NCBI GenBank assembly: GCA_012515535.1
Contig: JAAYYF010000165.1
Location: forward strand, 1 to 36,799
Direction of reading: 5' to 3'
DNA length: 36,799 bases
Source: Deinococcales bacterium
Lineage (GTDB): Bacteria > Deinococcota > Deinococci > Deinococcales > Trueperaceae
How positions within the stretch are numbered: position 1 is the first letter of the stretch; every line of letters begins with the position of its first letter. Positions 1 through 36,799 of the stretch are shown in pieces. Made by a program: the position numbers and the translations under genes. The notes beneath the pieces were generated by a model. The model ran no database searches, was not told where the DNA came from, and saw only the letters and a program-made list of their open reading frames with translations.

Positions 1-1937
1 ACGTAGCCCGGCGGGGCGCCGATGAGCTTGGCGACGTTGTGGCGCTCCATGTACTCCGACATGTCGAGGCGGATGAGCTTCTCCTCGCTGTCGAAGAGCT
101 GCTCGGCGAGCGCCTTGGCGGTCTCGGTCTTGCCCACCCCGGTGGGCCCCAGGAAGATGAACGAGCCGATGGGGCGATCGGGGTCGGCGAGCCCGGCGCG
201 CGAGCGCCGGATGGCGTCGGCGACGGCCTCGATGGCCTCGTCCTGTCCGATGACCCGCTCGTGCAGCGCCTGCTCGAGCTCCAGCAGCTTCTCGCGCTCG
301 CCCTCCAGCAGGCGCGCCACGGGGATGTTGGTGGCGCGCGCCACCACCTGCGCGACCTCCTCCTCGCCCACCTCGAGGCGCACGTAGCGCGCGTCGTCGA
401 GCTTCTCGGCGAGGCGCTTGGTGTCGGCCTCGAGCTTGGGCAGCTCGCCGTAGCGCAGCTTCGCGGCGGCCTCCAGGTCGTAGTCGCGCTCGGCGGCCTC
501 GATCTGGGTGCGCACGCGGTCGAGCTGCTCCTGGTTGGCGCGCCACTCCTCGAGGGTGGCGCGCTCGGCCTCCCAGTCGGCCTGCGCCTGGCCGATCTGG
601 TCGGCGATGGCCCTCAGCTCCTCCTCGATGCGCAGGAGCCTGGCGGCAGAGTCGGGGTCGGTCTCCTTCTTCAGCGCCTCCTGCTCGATCTCGAGCTGCA
701 GCTTGCGGCGCCTCAGGCCGTCGATCTCCTCGGGCAGCGAGTCGAGCTGCACGCGGATGCGGCTGGCCGCCTCGTCGATGAGGTCGATGGCCGAGTCGGG
801 AAGGCGGCGGTCCGACACGTAGCGGTGCGCCATGGTGGCGGCGGCGATGAGGGCAGGGTCGGTGATGCCGACGCCGTGGTGCACCTCGTACTTCTCCTTG
901 ATGCCGCGCAGGATCGAGATGGTCTCCTCCACCGACGGCTCGTCGACGAGGATCGGCTGGAAGCGGCGCTCCAGGGCGGCGTCCTTCTCGATCTCGCGGT
1001 ACTCGGCCAGGGTGGTGGCGCCGATCATGCGCAGCTCGCCGCGCGCCAGCGGCGGCTTCAGCATGTTGCCGGCGTCGACGGCGCCCTCGGCCTTGCCGGC
1101 GCCCACGATGGTGTGGAGCTCGTCGATGAACAGGATGATCTCGCCGTCCGAGCGCGCTGTCTCCTCGATGACCGCCTTGAGGCGCTCCTCGAACTCGCCG
1201 CGGTACTTGGCGCCGGCCAGCAGGCTGCCCATGTCGAGCTGCACGACGCGCTTGCCCTGCAGCCCCTCGGGCACGTCCTTCTTGACGATGCGCAGCGCCA
1301 GCCCCTCGGCGATGGCCGTCTTGCCCACGCCGGGCTCGCCGATCAGCACCGGGTTGTTCTTGGTGCGGCGCAGCAGGATCTGCACGGTGCGGCGGATCTC
1401 GTCGTCGCGGCCGATGACCGGGTCGAGCTTGCCCTCGCGGGCGCGCTCGGTGAGGTCGATGCCGTACTTATCGAGCGCTTCGAAGGTGCTCTCGGCGGAG
1501 CGGCTCTCCACGGTGCGTCCTCCCCTGATGGCCAGGGCGGCCTCGGCCAGCGCGGCGGCGGCGGGCAGGCCCGGCAGGTCGGTGGCGGTGCGCGCCAGCG
1601 CCACCAGCAGCGTGTCGGCGGCCACGAACGAGTCCTGCCACTCGCGCGCGAGCGCCTCGGCGGCGTCGAAGGCGCGGCCGAGCTCGGAGCTCAGGTACTG
1701 GCCGGCGTCGCCGCTGACCTTGGGGAGCTTCTCCAGCGCGGCGTCGACGGCCGTGCGGACCGTCTGCGGGTCGGTGCCGGCGCGCTCCACCACGCGCGCC
1801 GGCACGCCGCTCGGGTCGGCGAGCAGCGCGGCGGCCAGGTGCAGCGGCGCCACCTGCTGGTGCTGGCGGGTGCGCGCCACCGACTGGGCGCTGGCCACCA
1901 GCTGCAGGGCTGCCTCGGTGAAACGTTCGGGATCCAT
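1..1937 (-). CDS. clpB: ATP-dependent disaggregase ClpB (3' end outside window)
   Basis: ClpB is the Hsp100 AAA+ disaggregase that works with DnaK to pull proteins out of aggregates in the cytoplasm. The 645 visible residues show the Clp N-terminal repeat domain (about 1-145), the first AAA+ module with Walker A GEPGVGKT (200-207) and a Walker B ending LFIDE, a charged coiled-coil middle domain (about 400-530), and the start of the second AAA+ module with GPTGVGKT near 600. The frame is open at the window edge, just after GAPPGYV, so roughly 200 C-terminal residues are missing. The ATG at 1937 starts [10 protein letters not shown] and lies 6 nt after a TATCAT box, which fits a leaderless mRNA. 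A HAIR-like operator overlaps the promoter and suggests heat-shock control. Family assignment is secure. Confidence 0.97.
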
Positions 1938-27582: not shown

Positions 27583-28740
<1,158 letters not shown>

Positions 28741-28827: not shown

Positions 28828-29613
<786 letters not shown>

Positions 29614-29659: not shown

Positions 29660-30871
29660 TCACCGCTCCCCCACCCCGAGGCGGCGCTCCAGCTGCCGGC
29701 TCGCGATCGACATGCGGTAGGCGAAGAAGAAGTAGATGGCGGCGATGAACAGGAACACCTCGAGCTTCACGCCGCCCGTCACCAGCAGCGACTCTGGCTG
29801 CACCGACACGATGTCGGCGACCTTGAAGAAGTCCACGAGGCCCACGATGAACACCAGCGAGGTGTCCTTGAAGAGGCCGATGGCCTGGCCCACGATGGCG
29901 GGGATCACCGCCCGCAGCGCCTGCGGCAGCACGATCAGGTAGGTCGTCTGCCACGCCGACAGGCCGAGCGCCCGCGCCGCCTCCGACTGCCCGCGCGGCA
30001 CCGCCTGCAGGCCGCCGCGCACGTTCTCGGCCATGTAAGCCGCCGAGAAGAGCGTGATGGCCACGTAGGCGCGCATGATGGCGGGCAGCGAGTTGGCGTC
30101 GACGTCGAGGATGAGCGGCAGCAGCAGCGAGGCGATGAACAGCCACATGATCAGCGGCGCGCCGCGCACCACCTCGATGAAGCCGATGCAGAAGTACTTG
30201 ATGGCCGGCAGCTTGCTCTGGCGCCCCAGCGCCAGCGCCACGCCGATCGGGAAGCTCGGGACGATGCCGGTGAAGAGGATCAGCGTGAGCAGGAAGCCGC
30301 CCCAGTCGCGGATGGGCACGCGCCCGAAGGGCCCGCCTGAGTCGACGCCGAGCAGCAGGACGGCGCCGCCGACCAGCCACACGGTCCAGGCCCACGGCAG
30401 GTGGCGCACCACCCGCGGCCACCGGAGGCCCACGAGGTAGCCGGCGAAGCCGATGGCCAGCGCCATGGGCCACAGGAAGCGCACGGAGGGCCAGAAGAGC
30501 ACGGCCACGACCGACACCAGCGCCACGAAGCCCTGCAGCGCGAAGAAGGCGCTGCCGATGATGGAGCGGCGCCCCGCCACCCCGGACATGGCGCCCATCA
30601 GCCCCAGCATCACGCCCGCGACCAGCAGCGGCCGCCACAGGTACTGGGTGGGGTAGCGGTAGACGCCGAACAGCTTCATGTTGCGCCACACCTGCTCCCA
30701 GGAGGCGTCGACGAAGACGAAGGTCGCCAGGTTGTAGAGCGCCCACGCCACGACGGCGCCGGTGACGAGCGTGAGCACGGTGTTGAACGGGCCGGAGAAC
30801 AGGTTGCGGCGCAGCCAGTAGACGGGGCCGCTGGTGGGCACGGGCGCGGGACGCGGTGGGATCAGCGCCAT
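29660..30871 (-). CDS. aapM: Amino-acid ABC transporter permease AapM
   Basis: AapM is one of the two membrane subunits of general L-amino-acid importers. The 403-residue protein has an N-terminal extension typical of the AapM/BztC class and several hydrophobic helices. The inner-membrane permease module in the second half has the EAA loop [20 protein letters not shown], which contacts the ATPase. Neighbouring signatures are [15 protein letters not shown] and [14 protein letters not shown]. The ATG follows the aapQ stop by 1 nt, so the two are coupled. Confidence 0.94.
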
Positions 30872-30872
30872 C

Positions 30873-32711
30873 TCAACGCTCCACCAGCGCGAGCCGCGCG
30901 TTGACGTTGTTGAGCACGAGCGAGAACGCCAGGCTGATCAGCAGGTAGGCGCCGATCAGCAGCAGCGCGATGGGGATGGCGGCGCCGGTCTGGTTCGACA
31001 CCACGCTGGCGATGACGAACAGCTCGGCGTAGCCGGCCAGCGAGGCGAGCGACGAGTTCTTGGTGAGGTTCAGGTACTGGCTGATCATGGGTGGCAGCAC
31101 GACCCGCATGGCCTGCGGGAAGACGACGAGGGTGAAGGTCTGGTAGCCGGAGAGCCCCACGGCGTGGGCGGCCTCGCGCTGGCCCTTGGGCACGGCGAGG
31201 ATGCCGCCGCGCACGATCTCGGCGATGAACGCCGAGGTGTAGATCACCAGGGCCAGCAGCAGCGCCAGGTAGTTGACGGTGAAGCGCATGCCGCCCTCGT
31301 AGTTCGACACCGGCACGTGGGCGCGGCTGAGCACCAGCGCGCCGACCGGCAGCAGCTCGGTGGTGGCCTCGAGGGTGACCTCGGCGGCGCCGCTGCTGGT
31401 GGCGGCCTGGCCGAAGGCGGAGAAACGCCCGCCGCCGGCGGCGGGGGTCGTGGGCTCGGCCGCGGCCTGCTCGGCCGCGCTGGGCGCCTTGAACAGCGGC
31501 ATGCGCACCTGCCCGTCGCGGTCGGAGACGACCACGCGCTCGAAGCCGGTGAGGGTCATGACCACGCCCTGGCCGCCGTAGCCGCGGCCCGTGGCCGGGT
31601 CGACGTCCTCGCCTTCGTCGAGCTCGCCGTTGCCGTTGCGGTCGGCGTAGACGATGCCCACCGACGGGAAGGCCGTGAAGTGCAGCGCCAGCCCCTGGGC
31701 CGCGGCCGCCTCCGGGTCGGCGAAGGCGAACTCGAACGCCTCGGCCTCGCTCTCCTTGATGAGGGGGAAGCGGAAGGTGCCGTGGACCACCTCGCGCGAC
31801 TCGACCAGGTTCTGGCTGGTGGTGGTGAGGGTGGCGGTGGGCAGGCTGATGCGCACCGGCACGAACGCCGCCGGGCGGCTACGGCCGTCCTCGGCGATGG
31901 TGGTGGTGCCGCGGCCGCGCTCGGCGTCGAAGCTGACGGCGAGCTCGGGCGGCACGCTGCGGTCGGCGTAGCTGAACGCCAGCCCGCCGCCCGCCACCAC
32001 CAGGAACGCCACGAGCGGGTAGGGCCACACGCGGCCCACCTGGTCGAGGCGCCGCAGCTGGCGCACGCGCCACAGCGCCGCGAGCGCCGCCAGCACGGCG
32101 GCGGCGACCAGGAACGGCACCCAGGAGCCGAAGCGGTAGGTGGGATAGAGGGCCGGGAAGGCCAGCCCGACGTTGGATAGCAGGAGCCCGCCCGGCAGCG
32201 CGACCGGGTCGCTGATGCGGGGCGGGAAGGGCAGCAAGATAGCGGAGTACCAGAAGACGATCTGCACCGCCAGCGGGATGTTGCGCAGCACCTCGACGTA
32301 GACGGTGGCGAGCGTGCGCAGCAGCCAGTTGGCCGAGAGGCGCATCACGCCCACCAGCACGCCGATGAGGGTGGCCAGCGCCACGCCCACCACGGCGATC
32401 TTGAGGGTGTTCAGGAAGCCGATGAGCAGGGCGCGCGCGTAGGTGTCGGTGACCTGGTACGGGATCGGCCGCTCGGCGATCGGGATGCCGGCCGGGTTGC
32501 GCAGGAACGAGAAGTCCGCCGGCAGGTTGGCCCGGGCGAGGGCGGTGGTGACGTTGTTGACGAGGATGCCGACGCCGGCGACGAGCACCAGCACGAAGGC
32601 CACCTGCGCCAGGATGCCGATCACCTTCACGTTGCGCCAGAAGGGCACGACCGGCTCGGCGGTGTGGTTCCGTGGTTGCGCGTTCACCATCGGGTCAGGT
32701 TCCAGTTCCAT
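30873..32711 (-). CDS. aapQ: Amino-acid ABC transporter permease AapQ with large extracytoplasmic insertion
   Basis: The protein has the normal AapQ/BztB ends: VYVEVLRNIPLAVQIVFWYS in the first half, and the permease module with EAA loop AVPKGQREAAHAVGLSGYQT near residue 506. At 612 residues it is about 200 longer than the usual 400 or so. The extra sequence lies between the helix at about 231-248 and the helix at 477-497 (residues 253-470, DNA 31302-31955). An Arg-rich segment (214-227) before the first of these helices places the insertion outside the cell membrane by the positive-inside rule. It contains an EF-hand-type loop (D357 to E368) and an Ala/Thr-rich linker (408-440). An ATG at 32690 with GGAA upstream is an alternative start. 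Confidence 0.92.
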   Translation of the reverse strand: MELEPDPMVNAQPRNHTAEPVVPFWRNVKVIGILAQVAFVLVLVAGVGILVNNVTTALARANLPADFSFLRNPAGIPIAERPIPYQVTDTYARALLIGFLNTLKIAVVGVALATLIGVLVGVMRLSANWLLRTLATVYVEVLRNIPLAVQIVFWYSAILLPFPPRISDPVALPGGLLLSNVGLAFPALYPTYRFGSWVPFLVAAAVLAALAALWRVRQLRRLDQVGRVWPYPLVAFLVVAGGGLAFSYADRSVPPELAVSFDAERGRGTTTIAEDGRSRPAAFVPVRISLPTATLTTTSQNLVESREVVHGTFRFPLIKESEAEAFEFAFADPEAAAAQGLALHFTAFPSVGIVYADRNGNGELDEGEDVDPATGRGYGGQGVVMTLTGFERVVVSDRDGQVRMPLFKAPSAAEQAAAEPTTPAAGGGRFSAFGQAATSSGAAEVTLEATTELLPVGALVLSRAHVPVSNYEGGMRFTVNYLALLLALVIYTSAFIAEIVRGGILAVPKGQREAAHAVGLSGYQTFTLVVFPQAMRVVLPPMISQYLNLTKNSSLASLAGYAELFVIASVVSNQTGAAIPIALLLIGAYLLISLAFSLVLNNVNARLALVER

Positions 32712-32814: not shown

Positions 32815-33840
32815 TCAGTTGAAGGGGAAGCCGTAGATCAGGCCGCCCTCGTAGTACTGGGCGTTGATGCCGCGCTCGAGGCCGAACACGGAGCCGGCGC
32901 CGAGGTTGCGGTCGAAGATCTCGCCGTAGTTGCCCACCGCCTTGATGGCGTTGTAGAAGGCGTCGGCGCTGAGGCCGAGCGCCTGGACGTACGACTCGGA
33001 GCCCGGGGCGCCCAGCAGGCGCAGCACCTGCGGGTCCTGGGCGTTGGCGCGCAGGTCGTCGACGTTCGCCTGGGTCACGCCGTACTCCTCGGCGTTGAAG
33101 AGGGCGAAGACGGTCCAGGTGACCACGTCGTACCACTGGTCGTCGCCGTGCAGCACGGCGGGGCCGAGCGGCTCCTTGGAGATGACCACGGGCAGGATCT
33201 TGTGGTCGTCGGGCACGCGCAGCTGCTGCTGGTAGGAGACGAGGCCCGAGGTGTCGGTGGTCCAGCCGTCGCACTGGCCGTCGTCGTAGGCGGCGATCAG
33301 CACCGGCGCGGTCTCGAAGATCACGGGCGTGAAGTCGATGCCGAGGCCGGCCAGGGTCGTGCCCAGGTTGGTCTCGGTGGTGGTGCCGGACTGCACGCAG
33401 ACGGAGCGCCCCTCGAAGTCCTGGAGGCTGTTGATGCCCGAGTCCTTGCGCACCATGAAGCCCTGGCCGTCGTAGTAGGTCGTGGGGGCGAAGTTCGCGC
33501 CCCAGTCGGACTCGCGGCTGCTGGTGCGGGTGGTGTTGCGGATCAGCACGTCGATCTCGCCGGACTGCAGGGCGGTCGGGCGCTCGCCGGCGGTCAGCGG
33601 GCGGTAGACGACGGCGTTGGCGTCGCCGAGCACGGCGGCGGCGATGGCCTTGCAGAAGTCGACGTCGAAGCCCTGGTAGGCGCCCGAGGCGTCGACGAAG
33701 CCGAAGCCGGGGAGCGTGGCGTTGACGCCGCAGCGCAGCTCACCGCGGTTCTTGATCTCCTGCAGGCGCCCCTGAGCGAGCACGGTGCTCGCGGCGACCA
33801 GCAACGACAGCACGGCCAGTATCCGGACGGAACGAACCAT
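32815..33840 (-). CDS. aapJ: Amino-acid ABC transporter substrate-binding protein AapJ
   Basis: The 341-residue periplasmic binding protein delivers amino acids to the AapQM permease. It has a signal peptide (cleavage likely after STVLA, residue 21) and two lobes. Family signatures are LRCGVNATLPGFGFVDASG, GFDVDFCKAIAAAVLGD, GRSVCVQSGTTTE, and the C-terminal GNYGEIFDRNLG followed by RGINAQYYEGGLIYGFPF. The ATG at 33840 is chosen because AGGAAGGTGG ends 5 nt upstream; an in-frame GTG at 33849 lies inside that site. It is the first gene of the operon. Confidence 0.96.
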   Translation of the reverse strand: MVRSVRILAVLSLLVAASTVLAQGRLQEIKNRGELRCGVNATLPGFGFVDASGAYQGFDVDFCKAIAAAVLGDANAVVYRPLTAGERPTALQSGEIDVLIRNTTRTSSRESDWGANFAPTTYYDGQGFMVRKDSGINSLQDFEGRSVCVQSGTTTETNLGTTLAGLGIDFTPVIFETAPVLIAAYDDGQCDGWTTDTSGLVSYQQQLRVPDDHKILPVVISKEPLGPAVLHGDDQWYDVVTWTVFALFNAEEYGVTQANVDDLRANAQDPQVLRLLGAPGSESYVQALGLSADAFYNAIKAVGNYGEIFDRNLGAGSVFGLERGINAQYYEGGLIYGFPFN

Positions 33841-33863
33841 TGAGTCCACCTTCCTGAGTCCAA

Positions 33864-34138: not shown

Positions 34139-34786
34139 TCAGGCCAGCGCGGCCTGCTGGTCCTTGGCGCGCTGCTCCAGCTTCGCCTTGATGCGCTTGA
34201 GGGTGGTGACCTCCTCCAGGGCGCGCTGCTCCAGCACGCTCTGGATGTGGCGGATCTCGTAGTTGATGCCGGGGATCACGAGCTGCTCGAGCGCGTTCAC
34301 GCGGCGGTTGGTCTTCTTGATCTCCTCGCCGATCTTGCGCAGCCGCGTCTCGGTGGCGGCGACCTTGGTGATCGCCTCCACCATCTTGCGGAACTGCTGG
34401 GCGGCCTCCAGGGTGGAGGCGCCGGCGCCGACGGGCGAGAAGGGCAGCTTGTCGTCGAACGTGGGCGGCTGCACCTGCGGCACCTTGACGCCGAAGATGT
34501 TCTCCACCTTGAGCCCGATCTCGAGCTCGGAGTCCACGGCCAGCGCCAGGCTGCTCACGGCGGCCGGGCCGTCCCAGGCGTTCGCCAGGAAGAGGGCGAA
34601 GTAGGCCTCGCGGCTCGCTTCGGTGAGTTCGCGCCGCGCTTCCAAGGAGGACTTGACGAGCGCGAAGAACTCGCCCACCAGAGCGTCGCGCTTGCGCTTG
34701 AGCAGGTCAGCGCCGCGGACGGCGAGCTTGGCCTGGTCGCGCCGCTGCAGCAGGTTCGAGCGCGTCGGGGCGATGTTCTCAGCCAT
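34139..34786 (-). CDS. atpD: V-type ATP synthase subunit D
   Basis: Subunit D is the central rotor shaft of V/A-type ATPases. The 215-residue protein has the family start APTRSNLLQRRDQAKLAVRG and the conserved ETRLRKIGEEIKKTNRRVNALE segment near residue 155. Long N- and C-terminal helices form the coiled-coil shaft. The ATG has AGGAGGT upstream. It follows subunit B by 15 bp, is the last gene of this operon section, and is followed by a strong terminator. Confidence 0.97.
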   Translation of the reverse strand: MAENIAPTRSNLLQRRDQAKLAVRGADLLKRKRDALVGEFFALVKSSLEARRELTEASREAYFALFLANAWDGPAAVSSLALAVDSELEIGLKVENIFGVKVPQVQPPTFDDKLPFSPVGAGASTLEAAQQFRKMVEAITKVAATETRLRKIGEEIKKTNRRVNALEQLVIPGINYEIRHIQSVLEQRALEEVTTLKRIKAKLEQRAKDQQAALA

Positions 34787-34801
34787 TGCCTACCTCCTCC
34801 C

Positions 34802-36226
34802 TTACAGCCTGTCCCCGCGACCGGCGCCCCACAGCTCTTCCATCTTGGCGCCGTAGTACTTGTCGATCTGGTCGTTGGAGAGGCGCGTGAGCTCGCTCTT
34901 GGGGAGCTGCGAGAGGATGGCCCACGCGATGGTGAGGGACTCCTCGACGGTGCGGTTCTCGCTGCCCTGGTTGATGAACGCCTTCTCGAACTCGTCGGCG
35001 AACTTCAGGTAGAGCTTGTCGTTCTCCGAGAGCGCGTCCTCACCGGTGATGGCCACGAGGCGGCGCAGGTCGAGGCCGTTGGCGTACGCGGCCTGTAGCT
35101 GGTCGGCGACGTTCTTGTGGTCCTTGCGCGTCTTGCCCTCGCCGATGCCGTTGTTCATCAGCCGCGACAGCGACGGGCCCGGGTTGATCGGCGGGTAGAC
35201 GCCCTTGTTGTGCAGGGCGCGCGCCAGGTAGATCTGCCCCTCGGTGATGTAGCCCGTGAGGTCGGGGATCGGGTGGGTCACGTCGTCGTCGGGCATGGTG
35301 AGGATCGGCAGCTGGGTGACCGAGCCGGGCTTGCCCGTGACCACGCCGGCGCGCTCGTAGATCGACGCCAGGTCGGTGTACATGTAGCCCGGGTAGCCGC
35401 GGCGGCCCGGGATCTCCTCGCGGGCGCCGCCGATCTCGCGGAGCGCCTCGCAGTAGTTGGTCATGTCCGTGAGGATGACCAGCACGTGGTAGCCGTGCTC
35501 GAACGCGAGGTACTCGGCGGCGGTGAGCGCCATCTTCGGGGTCAGGAGACGCTCGACGGCGGGGTCGTCGGCCTTGTTGAGGAACAGGACCGAGCGGGCC
35601 AGCGCGCCGGTGCGCTCGAACTCCTGGGTGAAGAAGGTCAGCTCGCGCTGCGTGACGCCCATGGCCGCGAAGACCACGGCGAACTCGGTGTCCTCGCCGA
35701 TGACCGTCGCCTGGCGGGCGATCTGCGCCGCCAGCTCGTTGGCCGGCAGGCCCGAGCCCGAGAAGATCGGCAGCTTCTGGCCGCGCACCAGGCTGATGAG
35801 GGTGTCGATGGTGCTGATGCCCGTCTGGATGAACTCCTCGGGCTTACGGCGCGCCACCGGGTTGATGGGGGCGCCACCGATCGGCAGGCGCGCGTCGGCG
35901 ACCACCGGCGGCAGGCCGTCGATGGGGACGCCGGCGCCGTTGAAGCGGCGGCCGATCATCTCCTTGGACACGCCGAGGCGCGCCACGTTCTCGACCAGGT
36001 TCACGGTGGTCGTGGAGAGGTCGATGCCGGAGGTCTCCTCGAAGACCTGCAGCACGGTGTACTCCTTCGACACCTCGATGACCTGACCGCCGCGCACGCG
36101 GCCGGTGCCGTCCTTGATGTTGACGATGGCGTTGTAGCTGAGGTCGGGGGCGTTCTGCAGGAACAGCAGCGGGCCCGAGACGTAGCTGACTTCGCTGTAT
36201 TCCTTCTTGAGTAGGTTGCTGCTCAT
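34802..36226 (-). CDS. atpB: V-type ATP synthase subunit B
   Basis: Subunit B is the regulatory nucleotide-binding subunit of the V1/A1 hexamer. The 474-residue protein has the beta-barrel start (about 10-80) and [12 protein letters not shown]. In place of a catalytic P-loop it has [18 protein letters not shown]. It also shows [34 protein letters not shown] and the [15 protein letters not shown] segment. Length is typical. It begins 14 bp after the subunit A stop and has GGAGAG next to the ATG. Confidence 0.98.
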
Positions 36227-36240
36227 CTCTCTCCAGGGCC

Positions 36241-36799
36241 TCAGGCGGCCACGCCGAAGCCGCGTTCGATGTCGGCCAACACGCTGTCGCGGTAGCCGGC
36301 GAACTCGTCCTCGGGGACGTAGCGGGCACGGTTGATCTTCTCGATGACCGGGTTCTGCAGGATCTCGTCCACGGTGGCGCCGCCTTCCAGGGCCTCACGG
36401 GCCTGGTCGTAGAAGCGGATCATCATGGTGAGCAGGCCGTAGGCCTTGGTCATGGAGGAGCTAGCGTCGACGGGGTCGAAGCCGTTCTGCTGCAGGAAGT
36501 CCTGGCGCAGGATGCGACCGATCTCGATGACGAGGCGCTCCTGGTCCTGCAGCGCGTCGGGGCCGACCAGCTGCACGACCTCCTGCAGGTCGTTCTCCTG
36601 CTGCAGCAGCGTGACGGCGCGGTCGCGCAGCTCCGGGTAGTCCGGGGCCACGTTCTCGCGGTACCACTCGTCGAGGATCGGCGTGAACAGCGAGTAGGAG
36701 CGGTTCCAGTTGATCGCCGGGAAGTGACGGCGGCGCGCCAGAGCGGCGTCGAGCGCCCAGAAGCAGCCGGTGATGCGCAGCGTGGCCTGGGTGACCGGC
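36241..36799 (-). CDS. atpA: V-type ATP synthase subunit A, C-terminal part (5' end outside window)
   Basis: The last 185 residues of the catalytic subunit are visible. The sequence enters the window in the region [20 protein letters not shown], a conserved feature of A subunits, followed by WNRSYSLF and a helical C-terminal domain ending IERGFGVAA. The P-loop and catalytic Glu lie upstream of the window. With atpB and atpD it gives the A-B-D order seen in Thermus and other Deinococcota. Confidence 0.96.

Follow-up and report, generated by a model that had tools for sequence, protein, structure and literature searches.

The aapQ locus

The window analysed here, meaning the whole stretch of 36,799 nucleotides from a Trueperaceae (Deinococcota) genome (Deinococcales bacterium, contig JAAYYF010000165.1), carries on its minus strand an amino-acid ATP-binding cassette (ABC) importer of the AapJQMP type, with the gene order aapJ-aapQ-aapM-aapP. 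Its permease AapQ is 612 residues long, and a first-pass annotation of the sequence had already pointed to this length and to an insertion of roughly 200 residues. Both are confirmed: between the end of transmembrane helix 5 (Q248) and the GG motif (Q473), 26 insert-bearing AapQ (a set that includes some near-identical pairs) have 196-233 residues, against 18-23 in ordinary AapQ. The gene and the parts of its insert are the following.

30873-32711, minus strand: aapQ, amino-acid ABC importer permease of 612 residues with an extracytoplasmic insert (BPD_transp_1 and HEQRo_perm_3TM matches; phmmer alignment to 4yms_D)
31347-31964, minus strand: net insert, AapQ residues about 250-455, ~205 residues (40-AapQ alignment, loop lengths, tree)
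31479-31955, minus strand: predicted folded beta domain, residues 253-411, with two apparent strand-loop-strand units (AlphaFold2; hhalign of the halves)
31866-31892, minus strand: position of an upstream calcium-type loop, degenerate in the window (residues about 274-282, EDGRSRPAA; alignment)
31608-31643, minus strand: calcium-type loop DRNGNGELDEGE (residues 357-368), with predicted strands 351-356 and 382-395 on either side
31371-31478, minus strand: flexible, variable linker rich in Ala, Pro, Gly and Ser, residues 412-447 (predicted local distance difference test (pLDDT), identity, alignment)

The protein is an AapQ or HAAT-type permease, with a type I core that contains the EAA loop and an operon of substrate-binding protein, two permeases and ATPase. 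Pfam matches to BPD_transp_1 (residues 479-607, 50.6 bits) and HEQRo_perm_3TM (residues 94-157, 55.6 bits) are both over the cut-off. It shares with AapQ/BztB of the AapJQMP-type general L-amino-acid importers the operon, the core, the extra helix hairpin and the EAA region, whereas it has about 225 residues where these ordinary members have 18-23.

Distribution and origin of the insert

The comparison set was 14 ordinary AapQ homologues belonging to other families and phyla, with lengths measured from stop to stop; homologues without the insert span 375-470 residues, with a median of about 407. An alignment of homologues, as the first-pass annotation had proposed, was made for 40 AapQ: the insert is present in all 26 family sequences, which form one clade, and is absent from the aligned AapQ of other orders and phyla. 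Searching 111 Deinococcota genomes with an insert profile gave 27 with the insert at an E-value of 1e-60 or better, all of them Trueperaceae, the family that also holds the closest AapQ relatives of the window genome. The only two further matches (E about 1e-4) were short and located in two unrelated proteins, one a surface protein with SdrD_B repeats and the other pilin-like. The absence of the insert elsewhere is thus stated for the aligned AapQ loci and for the phylum search in Deinococcota. In the genome of the window a second copy of the domain was looked for and none was found.

In a tree of AapQ computed with the insert removed, one branch with 100/100 support separates all insert-bearing sequences. 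Since these fall on one side of one branch, a single gain of the insert suffices, and within the insert-bearing clade the tree contains no reversion to the short form. A frameshift or assembly artefact was rejected because the same insert reads through as an open frame in independent assemblies, among them the single-contig genomes G001, G017 and G021.

One Trueperaceae genome (G010) carries, next to its insert-bearing AapQ, a second aap-type operon (L171, G010:C20:130500-137500) with an AapQ of 416 residues that lacks the domain and is placed outside the insert clade in the tree. This second operon is a natural control for the function of the domain.

The insert-bearing loop is extracytoplasmic

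Using phmmer, the solved amino-acid permease 4yms_D could be aligned to AapQ in two parts (residues 11-79 to AapQ 91-159, and 75-214 to AapQ 471-607). Because 4yms aligns on both sides, AapQ residues ~160-470 must enter one loop of the five-helix core, at 4yms residues 75-79. This stretch consists of a helix hairpin (about 194-249), which is also found in ordinary AapQ, followed by the new domain. The helix after the insert (477-502) continues without a break into the EAA coupling loop. In every importer of this kind that coupling loop faces the ATPase, and consequently the insert-bearing loop lies on the extracytoplasmic side. A cytoplasmic loop was rejected by the EAA loop together with the 4yms placement. 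The charges agree with this (5 positive and 1 negative in the loop joining helices 4 and 5; an acidic insert with 18 positive and 30 negative). The first-pass annotation had placed the loop outside the membrane on the basis of charge, and this placement is borne out for a stronger reason, namely the helix leading to the EAA loop and the alignment with 4yms.

Predicted fold of the domain

AlphaFold2, run on 15 family sequences, predicts an all-beta domain with one short helix, followed by a flexible tail and the linker. Domain residues 11-160 (AapQ about 254-403) reach a pLDDT of about 90-96. A model of full-length AapQ (mean pLDDT 62) has the same strands, with a poor membrane part. Over most of the linker the pLDDT in the full-length model is 30-43; beyond the genus its mean identity to that of the window is 19%, and it is missing in L011, L099 and L100. 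The insert appears to consist of two related strand-loop-strand units, as the profiles of its two halves match in hhalign (probability 94%, 32 columns), chiefly in the region of the loop.

A Foldseek search of the domain against the PDB returned 272 weak matches (best E-value 0.11, TM-score 0.18), which we treated as no match, and searching the PDB sequences with a profile of the insert gave no match even at an E-value of 10. As modelled, the domain seems to have a fold without a clearly similar solved structure.

Calcium-type loops

The first-pass annotation had described residues 357-368 as a canonical EF-hand loop. The ligands of the 12-residue loop do fit: D1, N/D3, N/D5 and E12 are found in all 26 sequences. 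Homologues lacking conserved D/N/D/E positions had been named in that annotation as a refutation, and the positions proved to be conserved. In addition, G6 is present in 23/26 and position 8 is hydrophobic or aromatic throughout; position 9 is variable (D, Q, T or S). Among all 12-residue frames of the insert only the one starting at 357 keeps an acid or amide at all four ligand positions throughout. With these positions kept in 26/26 sequences and in one frame only, while the beta part overall averages 39% identity to the window's beyond its genus, a chance match to the motif was rejected. The word canonical does not stand, however. A PROSITE PS00018-type EF-hand pattern matches 0/26 sequences, position 13 being D, E, Q or N and never hydrophobic. 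A helix-loop-helix EF-hand was therefore rejected, as the loop is also flanked by predicted strands (AlphaFold2 pLDDT about 94) and not by helices. In short, the likeness to the canonical EF-hand concerns the loop chemistry at positions 1, 3, 5, 6, 8 and 12, and the differences are the flanking strands and position 13. Judged from the sequences, this conservation argues strongly for a metal site, and the loop probably binds calcium.

This loop is not the only one in the family. An upstream motif, missed in the first reading, is carried by 19/26 relatives as D/E-x-[DN]-x-[DN] (e.g. DANGNGERERDE), flanked by predicted strands 267-274 and 285-298; L006 and L049 are among those that retain both loops. 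The upstream motif is absent from all six sequences of the window genus and from L089. One of the two probable metal sites has been lost specifically in the lineage of the window genus.

Related loops are also seen outside AapQ. Two neighbouring pilin-like proteins of G072 (L139:803-1309 and 1327-1797, minus strand) share a 'VFxDRNGNxxYDxGEE' loop, probably in a hairpin. They carry 'VFVDRNGNRTYDAGEE', which shows that such loops can arise elsewhere; the pseudopilin loop is possibly a convergent calcium site.

Likeness to SdrD_B domains

In the B domains of staphylococcal SdrD, an EF-hand-like Ca2+ site is located in the A-B loop, immediately following strand A (PMC13174682). The insert appears to resemble SdrD_B (PF17210) in its order of strand, DxNxNGxxxxGE loop and strand, in a later 'DxxG' turn and in the EF-hand-like site in the A-B loop, whereas its units look incomplete. 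In a Pfam search of 21 inserts, SdrD_B was hit in 8 (E up to 1) and GEVED in 6, with all matches below the cut-off in the ten inserts tabulated. The best SdrD_B score was 19.7 bits against a gathering cut-off of 29.7.

Aligning the second unit with 38 SdrD_B units of other Deinococcota proteins by hhalign gave a probability of 96% over 51 columns (score 49.2). When the loop was left intact and the remaining columns were shuffled (20 times) the score was at most 37.8, and with the loop masked the register was unchanged at a probability of only 16%. At the level of profiles, the second unit thus seems to resemble SdrD_B somewhat beyond the loop, though the loop dominates the similarity. An SdrD structure was not among the 50 Foldseek matches listed of 272, none of which was better than an E-value of 0.1, and the two-unit model may hide a match. 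Full SdrD_B membership was not accepted, given the sub-threshold bits, the loop-dominated hhalign result and the lack of a credible Foldseek match. The two may share a remote ancestor or may have arrived at the same loop by convergence.

Tandem calcium-type loops also occur in a large surface protein of G049 with SdrD_B repeats (L138:484-3192), and several Deinococcota families carry many such repeats.

The aap operon and its surroundings

The remaining genes of the importer are the following.

32815-33849, minus strand: aapJ-like substrate-binding protein of 344 residues, the putative docking partner (SBP_bac_3)
29660-30871, minus strand: aapM, partner permease of 403 residues, without insert
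28828-29613, minus strand: aapP, importer ATPase of 261 residues (ABC_tran, GlnQ-like)

In 13 Trueperaceae loci examined the operon order is identical as far as each contig reaches, with aapJ directly upstream of aapQ. V/A-type ATPase genes lie directly upstream of the operon on the same strand (34139-36798). Subunits D and B are recognized by Pfam and the third gene is likely subunit A. A PilT-like type II/IV secretion ATPase (27583-28740) lies directly downstream of aapP.

Proposed function and alternatives

To our knowledge, folded extracytoplasmic domains of type I importer permeases are known for MalF, whose P2 loop is the best-known case, and none has been described in the polar-amino-acid (AapQ/HisM) branch; we also know of no calcium loops in MalF P2. 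Similarities between this domain of the MalFGK2 transporter and the AapQ insert are that both are large folded extracytoplasmic loops of similar size, in one of two type I permease subunits, and clade-restricted. In E. coli, P2 (MalF residues 91-271) directly contacts MalE (PMC3150292). It lies between transmembrane helices 3 and 4 of MalF, and Thermotogales MalF and MalG also carry clade-specific extra loops (PMC2246101). The two differ in position, P2 lying ahead of the core whereas the AapQ insert lies inside it, between core helices 2 and 3 and after the hairpin common to AapQ. They also differ in that contact with the binding protein has been shown for MalF, while for AapQ and AapJ we infer it. 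No MalF structure was among the 50 Foldseek matches listed.

In the mechanism that we favour, Trueperaceae AapQ has one extracytoplasmic, predicted beta domain, in the loop that precedes the helix leading to the EAA coupling loop. It appears to be built of two strand-loop-strand units; a DxNxNGxxxxGE-like loop is always present in the second and usually in the first, and this loop would probably bind a structural calcium ion that stiffens the domain. As AapQ has the domain and AapM has not, there would be one domain per heterodimeric transporter, beside the docking face for AapJ. Here it may touch amino-acid-loaded AapJ and help to position or retain it in a MalF P2-like manner, with the flexible linker letting the domain follow AapJ. 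We consider it about as likely as not that a calcium-stiffened extracytoplasmic domain aids docking of AapJ, and give a contact between domain and AapJ the same odds. By analogy with MalF P2, though at another site, a domain present once per heterodimer, beside the docking face and encoded together with aapJ in one operon, would most likely help to hold AapJ. Four charged residues of the domain are invariant or nearly so (E304, R392, R398 and R403) and are candidates for a docking surface or for internal salt bridges. Several points weigh against a docking role. The transporter type can manage without the domain, given that G010 also has an insert-less AapQ; the orientation of the domain over the transporter is not fixed by the model, as the full-length prediction is poor; and we only infer the contact with AapJ. 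Moreover, beyond the genus the mean identity to the window's sequence is 39% for the beta part against 55% and 70% for the membrane parts, and this lower conservation outside the loop would fit a domain under looser constraint.

The insert might instead be a tolerated, nearly neutral add-on that has stayed folded because a misfolded insert would damage the permease. Fast divergence of the linker and of some stretches of the domain, and the loss of the first loop and of the linker in places, would fit this. Nonetheless, every family member with an insert-type aapQ has kept the insert without falling back to the short form, and the four charged residues persist over deep divergence, so that we regard neutrality as distinctly unlikely. 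Somewhat less doubtful, yet still unlikely, is that the domain binds another envelope partner, be it peptidoglycan, a protein of the outer layer or a different membrane complex, and serves only as a tether for the transporter. Its nearest sub-threshold matches, SdrD_B and GEVED, are families of surface proteins, long SdrD_B proteins occur in related Deinococcota, and the domain is attached via a flexible linker. Set against this are the full conservation of the operon with aapJ, the location of the loop beside the docking face, and the Pfam search of the inserts, which gave no match to a known peptidoglycan-binding family.

Two further alternatives concern the loops themselves. The conserved loop might be a tight turn only, without binding calcium, as could be argued from the variable position 9 and from the full PROSITE-type pattern, which never occurs. 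A turn alone would not need D1 and E12, however, and the type of residue never changes at any of the side-chain ligand positions (1, 3, 5 and 12), with G6 and the hydrophobic or aromatic position 8 kept as well; we think this reading quite improbable. It is very unlikely, too, that the domain is a calcium sensor, by which extracytoplasmic calcium would switch amino-acid uptake on or off through ordering of the loop. The invariant ligands at one site and the usual presence of a second site speak in its favour, whereas the window genus has lost one site and retained the domain. Least probable of all is that a fold of two strand-loop-strand units without a close solved match makes uptake in Trueperaceae calcium-dependent by ordering the docking surface for AapJ.

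Significance

Summarizing, the AapQ insert is a real, lineage-specific addition of single origin that a known transporter has acquired, and its calcium-type loops are well conserved and sit in a beta setting; we found no publication on it in the literature searched. Scans for helical EF-hands would misname or miss EF-hand-type loops that occur, as here, within a permease and in a beta context. With its single origin and conserved calcium-type loops, the insert would also allow a clean test of the idea that add-ons of this kind evolve again and again as a means of holding the binding protein.
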